Shown piece after piece: positions 3,078 through 5,371 of a stretch of DNA of 64,000 nucleotides (position 1 is its first letter; the number at the start of each line of letters is the position of its first letter). The notes beneath the pieces were generated by a model. The model ran no database searches. It was not told where the DNA came from and saw only the letters and a program-made list of their open reading frames with translations. The stretch lies in the NCBI RefSeq assembly GCF_017744445.1, contig NZ_JAGIBH010000002.1, positions 248,001 to 312,000 on the forward strand, given 5' to 3'. The position numbers were made by a program, and so were the translations under genes. The stretch is from Caulobacter sp. (GTDB lineage: Bacteria > Pseudomonadota > Alphaproteobacteria > Caulobacterales > Caulobacteraceae).

Positions 3078-3905
3078 TTAGCGGAACAGGCTCAGGATCG
3101 ACGAACTGGATTGGTTCGCGATCGATAGGGCCTGGATGCCCAGCTGCTGCTTGGTCTGCAGCGACTGCAGCTTGGCGCTTTCCTTGGCCAGGTCGGCATC
3201 CACCAGGTTGCCGACACCGGCGTCCAGGCTGTCTTGCAGCTTGCCGACGAAGGTCAGGTGGGTGTCCAGACCGGTCGAGGCGGTGCCCAACGAAGCCAGC
3301 TTGTTGGTGGCGGTGCCGATGGCCTTGTCGATGGTGCTGATCATCGTCTTGGCGTCGCTGGCGTTGGCGAAGGTCGGGACCGTGGTCTTGTCGATGCCCA
3401 GGCCTTCCAGGGTCAGGGACTGCGCCTTGACCGTGAAGGTCGAACCGTCGGTGTTGGCCAGGAACATCAGGTTGGCGGTCTTGCCGTCGGCGATGCTGAT
3501 GCCGTTGAACTTGGCATTCGTGGCGGCCTTCTCGACCTGCTCGCGCAGCGAGTTGAAGTCCGACACCAGGGCGTTGAACGACGACGTGTTCAGCGAGGTG
3601 TCGGAAGCGGCCAGGGCCTTTTCCTTCATCTTGCCCAGCAGGTCGGTGATGGTGTCGCCAGCCGCCAGAGCCACATCGATGGTCGATTGACCGCGTTGCA
3701 GCGAGTCCTTGACCGCGTTCAGCGACGAGGCGGTGGCCGACTGGTTCTTGGCCATGGCCCAGATCGCGCCGTTGTCCTTGGCGTTACCGACCTTCTTGCC
3801 GGTGTTGATGCGCTGCTGGACGGTTTGCAGCTCGCTGTTGGTCGAGTTCAGGTTTTGCAGGGCGATCATGGCCCCGCTGTTCGTGTTGATGCTGTTCAGC
3901 GCCAT
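3078..3905 (-). CDS. Flagellin 1 (alpha-flagellin type)
   Basis: 275 residues, a short flagellin as in Caulobacter, with the D0/D1 domains conserved at both ends ([13 protein letters not shown] at the N-terminus, [15 protein letters not shown] at the C-terminus) and only a small central variable region. It is exported by the flagellar type III apparatus and polymerises into the filament. It differs from the neighbouring paralogue (4188-5015) at 24 of 275 positions, nearly all between residues 105 and 200. A strong AGGAGA ribosome site precedes the ATG. The leader carries two hairpins also found in the paralogue, which suggests post-transcriptional control of the FlbT kind known for Caulobacter fljK. 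Which of fljK/M/N/O it corresponds to cannot be decided here. Confidence 0.95.
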
Positions 3906-3932
3906 AACGAAACATCTCCTATTCGAGGTGTT

Positions 3933-3971
3933 CCGGTGTCTTTTTGACGACCGGTGGGCATTTTACCCACC
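3933..3971 (-). promoter_or_regulatory. Flagellin 1 leader with two tandem hairpins
   Basis: Hairpin I (3933-3954) pairs CCGGT/ACCGG and GTC/GAC around a T5 loop. Hairpin II (3953-3971) pairs GGTGGG/CCCACC. They lie 28-66 nt upstream of the start codon, with hairpin II at the 5' side of the transcript. The same two structures occur in flagellin 2 with compensatory base changes. Candidate binding region for the flagellin translation regulator FlbT (inference). Confidence 0.6.
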
Positions 3972-4060
3972 GCGACATTATGACGCCGACCTTTCGATAC
4001 CCTTTATGAGTTGTAGTTACTTCCTTAACAACCAAACTAATCCGTTAAATACTTTTAACT

Positions 4061-4104
4061 GTGAGTCTAACTAGACTCACGAATGAGTCTGATCAGACTC
4101 ATTC
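4061..4104. promoter_or_regulatory. Double palindrome with four phased GANTC sites
   Basis: A 20-bp near-perfect palindrome (4061-4080) abuts a perfect 24-bp palindrome (4081-4104). Together they place the 7-mer TGAGTCT or its complement at 4062, 4073, 4084 and 4095, an exact 11-bp period. Each 7-mer contains a GANTC CcrM methylation target. The element lies between the terminator of flagellin 2 and the start of flagellin 1, 156-199 bp upstream of the latter. Confidence 0.6.
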
Positions 4105-4129
4105 CTCCTGACGAATACTGGCCCCATAG

Positions 4130-4156
4130 AAAAAGGGCGGACCCGAAGGCCCGCCC
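4130..4156 (-). terminator. Rho-independent terminator of flagellin 2
   Basis: On the minus strand: a 9-bp stem with one G-U pair (4135-4143 with 4148-4156), a TTCG tetraloop, then a T5 tract at 4134-4130. It lies 31 bp beyond the stop codon and separates the two flagellin transcripts. Confidence 0.9.
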
Positions 4157-4187
4157 CTCTCGACGACCAAAATCGCCGAAGTCAGCT

Positions 4188-5015
4188 TTAGCGGAACAGG
4201 CTGAGGATCGACGAACTGGATTGGTTCGCGATCGACAACGCCTGGATGCCCAACTGCTGCTTGGTCTGCAGCGACTGCAGCTTGGCGCTTTCCTTGGCCA
4301 GGTCGGCATCCACCAGGTTGCCCACGCCGGCTTCCAGGCTGTCTTGCAGCTTGCCGACGAAGGTCAGGTGGGTGTCGAGACCGGTCGAGGCCGTGCCCAG
4401 CGACGCCAGCTTGTTGGTGGCGGTGCCGATGGCCTTGTCGATGGTCGTGATCATCGTCTTGGCCGCGCTGGCCGTGGCGAAGGTCGGCGACGCGGTCGGA
4501 TTGATCCCCAGACCGGCCAGGCTCAGGGACTGCGCCTTCACGGTGAAGACCGAGCCGTCCGTGTTGGCCAGGAAGGTCAGGTTGGCGGTGCTACCGTCAG
4601 CCACGCTGGCGCCGTTGAACTTGGCGTTCGTGGCGGCCTTCGAGATCTGGTCGCGCAGCGAGTTGAAGTCCGACACCAGGGCGTTGAACGAGGCGGTGTT
4701 CAGCGAGGTGTCGGAAGCGGCCAGGGCCTTTTCCTTCATCTTGCCGAGCAGGTCGGTGATGGTGTCACCAGCCGCCAGAGCCACATCGATGGTCGATTGA
4801 CCACGTTGCAGCGAGTCCTTCACCGCGTTCAGCGACGAGGCGGTGGCCGATTGGCTCTTGGCCATGGCCCAGATCGCGCCGTTGTCCTTGGCGCTGCCCA
4901 CCTTCTTGCCGGTGTTGATGCGCTGTTGGGTGACTTGCAGCTCGTTGTTGGTCGAGTTCAGGTTTTGCAGGGCGATCATGGCCCCGCTGTTCGTGTTGAT
5001 GCTGTTCAGCGCCAT
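4188..5015 (-). CDS. Flagellin 2 (alpha-flagellin type)
   Basis: 275 residues, about 91 percent identical to flagellin 1 by direct comparison (24 differences), with the last 95 residues almost unchanged. The near identity at both ends suggests recent duplication or gene conversion. Same AGGAGA ribosome site and same leader architecture as flagellin 1. It has its own terminator, so the two genes are separate transcripts rather than an operon. C. crescentus carries three alpha-flagellin genes at its comparable locus; only two are present here. Filament structural protein, secreted through the flagellar export apparatus. Confidence 0.95.
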
Positions 5016-5042
5016 AACGAAACATCTCCTATTCGAGGTGTT

Positions 5043-5081
5043 CCGGCGTCGTTTTGACGGCCGGTGAGCGTTTTGCTCACG
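5043..5081 (-). promoter_or_regulatory. Flagellin 2 leader with two tandem hairpins
   Basis: Hairpin I (5043-5064) pairs CCGGC/GCCGG and GTC/GAC. Hairpin II (5064-5080) pairs GTGAGC/GCTCAC. Compared with flagellin 1, one T-A pair in hairpin I has become C-G and one G-C pair in hairpin II has become A-T, both on the two sides of the stem together. An AT-rich element (TATTATGT on the minus strand, 5091-5098) lies just upstream and resembles a similarly placed CATAATGT in flagellin 1; it may be part of the promoter. The rest of 5082-5254 is AT-rich with no gene seen. Confidence 0.6.
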
Positions 5082-5254
5082 TGCATCCTCACATAATAGG
5101 ACTAAGCGTTCGTTGAGATTTCAGTATTCTACAATTAAGATTTTGGATTATTTTGTTAATTATTAAATGAAGACTACTTCTATGCCTGTATCAAAATGGC
5201 ACAACCTCAACTCAACTTGGGTACATCTTAAAGTATAGAACCGCTACCTTAGGG

Positions 5255-5371
5255 TCAGCGATCGGCCAGGTAGAGGCGGGGCGAACGATAGTGCTTGGCG
5301 ATCGCCCGGATGGTGATCACGAAGACGAACCCTTTCCACAGGTCGGCGAAAAAGCTGCCGCGACGACGCAT
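5255..5371 (-). CDS. Small basic protein of 38 residues, unknown
   Basis: Starts MRRRGSFFADLWKGFVF and ends in YLADR. A good ribosome site, AAGGAG, lies 8 nt before the ATG, which is the main reason to believe it. It contains one hydrophobic segment (residues 12-25, rich in F, V and I) that could sit at or in the membrane, followed by a basic tail. It is downstream of wrbA on the same strand but separated from it by a terminator-like hairpin. I do not recognise the family; conservation in other Caulobacter genomes would settle whether it is real. Confidence 0.5.
   Translation of the reverse strand: MRRRGSFFADLWKGFVFVITIRAIAKHYRSPRLYLADR

Follow-up and report, generated by a model that had tools for sequence, protein, structure and literature searches.

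We have identified a conserved array of RNA hairpins in the leaders of two flagellin genes from a Caulobacter species, both lying in the 64,000-nucleotide stretch of DNA that was analysed (the window). Two tandem hairpins with a constant loop are followed by a third that pairs the Shine-Dalgarno (SD) sequence, and covariation among the leaders of relatives supports the first two as a selected RNA structure of flagellin leaders. The array is most likely a structured translational operator read by FlbT with the regulatory flagellin FljJ, a reading to which we assign a probability of about 0.7.

Structure of the window flagellin leaders

The genes and hairpins concerned are as follows.

3078..3905, minus strand: flagellin 1, a structural flagellin of 275 aa (open reading frame; NCBIfam flagellin models match, all below cut-off)
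4188..5015, minus strand: flagellin 2, a structural flagellin of 275 aa (open reading frame; NCBIfam flagellin models match, all below cut-off)
3952..3972, minus strand: flagellin 1 hairpin I (5'-most), loop AAAAT, from fold and covariation; CGGTGGGT-AAAAT-GCCCACCG
3933..3954, minus strand: flagellin 1 hairpin II, loop AAAAA, bulged C, from fold and covariation; CCGGTCGTC-AAAAA-GACACCGG
3911..3932, minus strand: flagellin 1 hairpin III, pairing the SD (AGGAG at 3916-3920), from the MFE fold; weakly conserved, three pairs
5064..5080, minus strand: flagellin 2 hairpin I, loop AAAAC, from fold and covariation; GTGAGC-AAAAC-GCTCAC
5043..5064, minus strand: flagellin 2 hairpin II, loop AAAAC, bulged C, from fold and covariation; CCGGCCGTC-AAAAC-GACGCCGG
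5021..5042, minus strand: flagellin 2 hairpin III, pairing the SD (AGGAG at 5026-5030), from the MFE fold

Flagellins 1 and 2 are 91% identical, and their 69-nt leaders fold more stably than dinucleotide shuffles (z -5.4 and -3.9, respectively). An initial sequence-only reading had described the same two tandem hairpins in both leaders, with two-sided pair swaps between the copies and identical flanking bases, and the minus-strand sequence and the fold bear this out. The promoter-distal hairpin exchanges a T-A pair for C-G, and the promoter-proximal hairpin a G-C pair for A-T. Flagellins 1 and 2 do not differ at any of the 27 positions that separate hairpin II from the ATG. An extra swap turns the closing T-G of the promoter-proximal hairpin of flagellin 1 into C-G in flagellin 2. 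Two features were absent from that reading, namely hairpin III (AACA-C-CUC..GAG-A-UGUU), which includes the SD sequence AGGAG, and the constant AAAA at the start of the loop. Its suggestion that hairpins I and II might be alternatives found no support as a general feature: the shared stem bases form optional outer pairs and, since the two stems of K-type leaders in relatives are directly adjacent and share no base, mutual exclusion is not a conserved property.

Covariation and conservation of the hairpins

From 78 loci encoding relatives (taken from the best 80 of 175 matches), together with the loci of the own genome, we obtained 168 flagellin leaders; five flagellin open reading frames without a start were left out. 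Paralog types (K, L and J) were assigned by script, and the fljK and fljJ labels were drawn from sequence and neighbours. The alignment comprises 73 leaders, 71 filed as K-type and two filed as L-type (L067 and L073). Four of the 82 distinct K-type leaders lie outside it (the near-duplicates L032, L039 and L047 and the misfiled J-type L079), as do the other 38 L-type leaders, and four rows missed by the hairpin filter were restored by hand.

Across this alignment, 97.1% of the 870 cells of hairpins I and II are paired; with slid partners the figure is 26-45%. Double-changed cells number 62 against 18.9 in shuffled alignments, and the covariation score of 0.279 (0.169 shuffled) was reached in none of 500 shuffles. 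Pairs changed on both sides (5 against 2.6, reached in 6 of 500 shuffles) and further pair types (16 against 13.9, 18 of 500) are moderately above shuffles. When all three helices are taken together, 93.3% of 1118 cells are paired, with 73 double-changed cells (24.1 shuffled) and a covariation score of 0.239 (0.151 shuffled, 0 of 500); two-sided changed pairs (7 against 5.0) and pair types (24 against 21.7) were reached in 52 and 44 of 500 shuffles, respectively. Hairpin III is the least conserved helix, with 79.9% of its cells paired, and hardly covaries; RNAalifold recovered the cores of hairpins I and II from the same alignment and did not recover hairpin III.

Parsimony on a tree built from 71 coding sequences (two of the 73 leaders have none) gives at least 16 switches of Watson-Crick type for the pair at columns 15/25 and at least 11 for the pair at columns 35/43. 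Summed over hairpins I and II there are at least 47, a total that gene conversion between paralogs may inflate. G-U cells far outnumber A-C cells (56 against 5), which indicates that the sense RNA, rather than a DNA dyad, is under selection. Two young copies are weak evidence, and the firmness of this result comes from the 73-leader alignment, over which covariation, a check set beforehand, is present. The sequence-only reading had further proposed that this is the RNA structure through which flagellin is controlled; a selected leader RNA structure stands, on the covariation and the G-U bias, and FlbT as its reader is what we infer.

Loop motif and flagellin type

Loop letters 1-4 are AAAA in 72 of the 73 leaders, in hairpin I and in hairpin II alike. 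The loops read AAAAT, AAAAC or AAAAA, with AAAAG twice in hairpin II and AGAAT once in each hairpin, and they are closed by a C-G or U-G pair. The promoter-distal hairpin (II) has one bulged base throughout these leaders, which may be C, A, G or T.

Pentaloop hairpins of the form A(A/G)AAN on stems of at least three pairs were found in 110 of 116 distinct structural-flagellin leaders, in 5 of 40 J-type leaders and in 13 of 235 control genes, these being other genes on those sequences. The control genes were taken from their first ATG, so that a few of them may be flagellin genes that begin further upstream. Two or more A(A/G)AA hairpins (loops of 4-7 nt, stem of at least three pairs) are present in 122 of 125 structural-flagellin leaders, duplicates included; with pentaloops only, the count is 103 of the 116 distinct leaders. 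L-type leaders have up to three A(A/G)AA hairpins. As judged by eye in 36 of them, the last hairpin mostly bears an AAAAY or AGAAY loop directly before the SD, and the second hairpin often has another loop.

With loops of 4-7 nt, 39 of 42 J-type leaders have at most one A(A/G)AA hairpin and the other three have two at stems of at least three pairs; at stems of at least four pairs, a tandem pair occurs in none of 40. The notion that J-type leaders lack the motif was rejected, as 26 of 40 have one hairpin at loops of 4-7 nt against 4.2 in shuffled sequences (maximum 9). FljJ is thus not exempt, and this regulatory flagellin may be subject to a similar, weaker control. Since J-type leaders usually have at most one hairpin and structural ones at least two, it is the tandem array and not the single hairpin that marks structural flagellins. 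The single hairpin (stem of at least four pairs) ends 12-14 nt before the start codon in 21 of 40 distinct J-type leaders. The J-type leader at L003:2940-2986 has an A(A/G)AA hairpin with a three-pair stem.

Proposed function of the array

In the available text of the sources, Caulobacter FlbT is a repressor that binds the 5' UTRs of flagellins, and Brucella FlbT is a proposed activator (PMC4347634, PMC3930126). FljJ is the sole partner with which FlbT interacts, and repression is relieved once FljJ is secreted (PMC7591256, available text). A 2015 review lists the mechanism of FlbT as unresolved and, in its available text, gives no binding motif (PMC4347634).

In the mechanism that we propose, the mRNA would start at, or a few bases from, hairpin I. 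Both hairpin I and hairpin II would display an A(A/G)AAN loop closed by a C-G or, in some cases, a U-G pair, and hairpin III would pair the SD. FlbT, together with FljJ, would bind the hairpin array and, once bound, would keep hairpin III closed, block the 30S subunit or speed decay; export of FljJ by the hook-basal body would then allow the flagellins to be translated. A repeated loop would suit a protein with possibly several binding sites, and the SD hairpin would be there for FlbT to hold. We infer FlbT as the ligand, the loop as the contact, SD closure as the mechanism and the transcript starts in the window.

Distribution of the array and of FlbT

The covariance model of the leader array (R1) matches four of the five flagellins of the own genome, missing the J type alone, and the own K-type (fljK-like) gene at L003 has the same array as the window leaders (E 4.7e-22). 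Two other matches in this genome (C82 and C170) lie in or beside unrelated coding sequence and were taken as chance. The genome also encodes FlbT (PF07378, E 4.1e-44).

Within Caulobacteraceae, R1 matches at E<=0.01 in 178 of 199 genomes (six of them between 1e-3 and 1e-2), and FlbT is present in 181 of 199. At E<=1e-3, crossing the two lists places 171 genomes with both, one with R1 alone (G209), ten with FlbT alone and 17 with neither, one R1-negative genome (G288) having been deduced; this co-occurrence is confounded with having flagella at all. Five of the ten FlbT-only genomes were viewed near flbT and a flagellin start was found in two; both leaders carry, by eye, A(A/G)AA hairpins that R1 missed. 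At L064, from 122, the flbT of an Asticcacaulis MAG consists of two overlapping frames, reflecting a frameshift in the gene or in the assembly.

Among 142 alphaproteobacterial genomes, 35 match R1 at E<=0.01, two of which are Caulobacteraceae. For the 33 outside the family, 28 loci (L122-L149) were searched for flagellin, the other five genomes having no locus. Flagellin was found at L122, L124 and L128 only, all three from FlbT genomes, and there the array stands, by eye, just after a sigma54-like box.

Flagellin matches occur in 63 genomes of other families, and we gathered 100 leaders from 47 of these, chosen among the matches listed and mostly from matches starting near residue 1. Two gave no start and 98 were scored; a few wrong starts (e.g. 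L238, L239 and L244) add noise. Pentaloops in the 70 leaders from FlbT genomes most often begin with AGAA (21, 1.65 expected) or AAAA (10, 3.35 expected), and those in the 28 leaders from genomes without full FlbT with AGGA (6, 0.75 expected) or AGAA (6, 0.7 expected). A(A/G)AA loops of 4-7 nt on stems of at least four pairs occur in 41 of 71 leaders from FlbT genomes against 12.6 expected (counting G046, with a sub-threshold FlbT, as FlbT), and in 4 of 13 leaders from CsrA genomes against 1.6 expected (maximum 4). GGA loops in leaders of CsrA genomes were not above shuffles (6 of 13 against 3.9, maximum 7). Pentaloop hairpins at stems of at least four pairs were found outside the family in 21 of 70 leaders in FlbT genomes and in 7 of 28 in the others; by genome the counts are 16 of 33 and 5 of 14, with no clear difference, and the expectation that FlbT presence predicts hairpins outside the family failed. 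The A(A/G)AA loop motif is thus common in flagellin leaders across Alphaproteobacteria, FlbT detection does not separate the genomes, and the array shrinks outside Caulobacteraceae.

These observations bear on a reading in which the array is real and its reader is another factor, such as a ribosomal or cold-shock protein, a small RNA or some other alphaproteobacterial factor. In genomes without detected FlbT or CsrA, 10 of 13 leaders have A(A/G)AA loops (2.0 expected), and motility confounds the link between FlbT and the array. FlbT is nevertheless the one factor with reported activity on flagellin UTRs in Caulobacter, in the available text of PMC4347634, PMC3930126 and PMC7591256, and the R1 matches upstream of flagellin outside the family are all in FlbT genomes. 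We consider another reader unlikely, although credible, and prefer FlbT.

Promoter and transcript start

Both a recognised sigma54 box and a first hairpin are present in 77 leaders, and in 74 of these 16-18 nt separate the -12 TTGC from the first base of the loop. Sigma54 transcripts usually start about 12 nt downstream of the -12 box, so that the mRNA would begin at the bottom of the hairpin I stem. Of 122 leaders, 45 are missing a recognised sigma54 box or a first hairpin, both window leaders among them, and a scan of the latter (3906-4000 and 5016-5110) found no sigma54 box, unlike in most K and L paralogs. According to the available text of PMC3930126, all six flagellin genes of C. crescentus are RpoN dependent, which suggests that the scan misses a degenerate box or that the window genes differ. 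A weak -10-like pattern is seen in 39 box-less K-type leaders, of which, with positions numbered from the loop, 32 have A at -15 and 34 have T at -11, and the window flagellins share a promoter-like pattern with other box-less leaders at the same distance from hairpin I. Judging from these letters, the start of box-less K-type genes, the window pair included, may lie at about the same place.

Upstream of flagellin 1, tandem palindromes TGAGTCTN4AGACTCA lie at window positions 4062-4079 and 4084-4101, each with a pair of GANTC (CcrM) sites. Elsewhere in the own assembly there is a single exact copy (C55:31156-31173, L352), which lies between a ribonuclease HII gene and ccrM, standing in front of ccrM (names by NCBIfam; CcrM E 1.1e-193, below the curated cut-off). 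The palindrome may possibly act as a methylation-sensitive switch common to ccrM and flagellin 1.

A hairpin at the very 5' end could also be a stability cap that keeps RppH and RNase E off an abundant flagellin mRNA, its loops unread; the 5' stem-loop of ompA is an mRNA stabiliser of this sort. Where a paralog has a sigma54 box, the beginning of hairpin I does fall near the expected transcript start, and the spacing is constant in 74 of 77 leaders. The loop of a cap would be free to vary, yet each of the two hairpins retains AAAA in 72 of 73 leaders even as its stem pairs change, a second like hairpin and the SD hairpin follow hairpin I, and J-type leaders have no tandem pair at stems of at least four pairs (0 of 40). 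We regard a cap as quite improbable. That the inverted repeats are instead DNA operators, dyad sites for a transcription factor near the start site, is very hard to credit: they lie near the promoter and A-tract centres are common in DNA sites, but the G-U excess (56 against 5 A-C) points to a stem kept in the sense strand only, the spacing between array and start codon is maintained, and hairpin III includes the SD. A translational operator read by FlbT remains our preferred reading.

FlbT and CsrA

By eye, the N-terminus of FlbT is CsrA-like (LKLSLKPGEKFVLNGAV...VLREKDI). In an hhalign comparison chosen after this likeness had been noticed, 58 FlbT sequences against 27 alphaproteobacterial CsrA sequences gave a probability of 70%, P 4e-5 and a score of 30.1. 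FlbT columns 4-42 align co-linearly with CsrA 2-46 over 39 columns, within the first 45 FlbT residues. Without gap columns the score was 30.0, against at most 24.2 in 150 column permutations and 12.6 for reversed columns. With 38 FlbT sequences from outside Caulobacteraceae it was 23.8 (probability 36%, P 3.7e-4), under the best permutation, and smaller first alignments had given probabilities of 36.6, 26.6 and 2.5%. A Pfam scan of FlbT at E<=10 returned FlbT and DUF3067 (0.14) only, with no match to the CsrA profile, and HMMER gave no FlbT-CsrA link. A PDB sequence search with one FlbT gave no matches, and with the A3 profile it gave eight (best E 0.39), none of them CsrA.

In the AlphaFold model of full-length FlbT, the helical part alone is confident and the N-terminus is of low confidence; a Foldseek search with this model had a best E of 1.6, with no CsrA among the matches listed (50 of 83). 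A low-confidence monomer model of the FlbT fragment (pLDDT 67-74 over residues 1-30) has strands at 2-6, 11-14, 17-20 and 26-30 and a helix at 39-42, an order that we take to be that of CsrA. The CsrA fold is an intertwined five-strand dimer. Foldseek with the fragment model gave 11 matches with no CsrA among them. The CsrA family (PF02599) is without the C-terminal helical domain that FlbT has.

The two proteins nearly exclude each other. In the 142 alphaproteobacterial genomes (G000-G141), FlbT was detected in 49 and CsrA in 28, with both in G087 only; among the 65 that bear flagellin, 43 have FlbT only, 14 CsrA only, one both and seven neither (Fisher 2.5e-8, kinship ignored). CsrA (PF02599) had no match in the own genome, whose assembly is 95.9% complete. 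We tentatively suggest, as a possibility somewhat short of even odds, that FlbT could be a diverged CsrA-type RNA-binding protein that replaced CsrA in most flagellated Alphaproteobacteria. Its N-terminal CsrA-like domain would read A(A/G)AAY rather than ANGGA, and its C-terminal helical domain would take the export signal from a flagellin (FljJ) rather than from FliW. The leader loop motif would have switched, and the multi-hairpin layout, with the last hairpin over the SD, would have been kept.

Comparison with known systems

FlbT has reportedly been known since 2000 as a post-transcriptional flagellin regulator of Caulobacter. The gene studied with FlbT by Anderson and Gober in 2000 is said to be fljK, and co-repression by FljJ was reportedly described by Ardissone et al. 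in 2020. The leaders described here resemble the FlbT-controlled flagellin leader of C. crescentus in that they are likewise leaders of structural flagellins, with FlbT in the genome and an FljJ-type paralog apart. Our analysis describes the consensus array, the constant loop, the covariation, the SD hairpin, the conservation and the 5'-end position. Titles and the beginnings of abstracts in the literature yielded neither the array nor a relation of FlbT to CsrA, and the primary FlbT papers may already describe part of the structure.

An Rfam scan of the window gave no matches at gathering score, and the 12 matches from a permissive scan of 3900-5300 were all under cut-offs, with none on the hairpins. 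The flg-Rhizobiales RNA (RF01736), which we take to be the Rfam family of Rhizobiales flagellin leaders, was considered and rejected as the identity of the array, with no match in the window and a single sub-cut-off match in the 142 alphaproteobacterial genomes. GGA loops, which mark CsrA-type flagellin leaders such as those of C. jejuni flaA and Bacillus subtilis hag, are present in 39 of 116 leaders against 29.9 in shuffled sequences (maximum 41); the loops of the array start with AAAA instead.

Among worked-out systems, the flaA leader of Campylobacter jejuni with CsrA is the closest parallel. In the available text of PMC4894983, that leader has two stem-loops, the second over the ribosome-binding site, which are read by CsrA, an action relieved by FliW; there are compensatory changes, as in the leaders described here, and repression is coupled to flagellar assembly, as is proposed for them. 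Its loops are ANGGA (PMC4894983, available text), whereas the leaders here have AAAAY or AGAAY. The same text suggests that an 'analogous system' with FlaF and FlbT might have evolved in Caulobacter, and in that part no homology is claimed (PMC4894983). With an array of constant loop, a covariance model and a possible tie to CsrA that can be put to the test, the FlbT mechanism becomes open to direct experiments, which could ask which loop bases and how many hairpins matter, and whether the same protein fold underlies both of these flagellin checkpoints, so far described as analogous.
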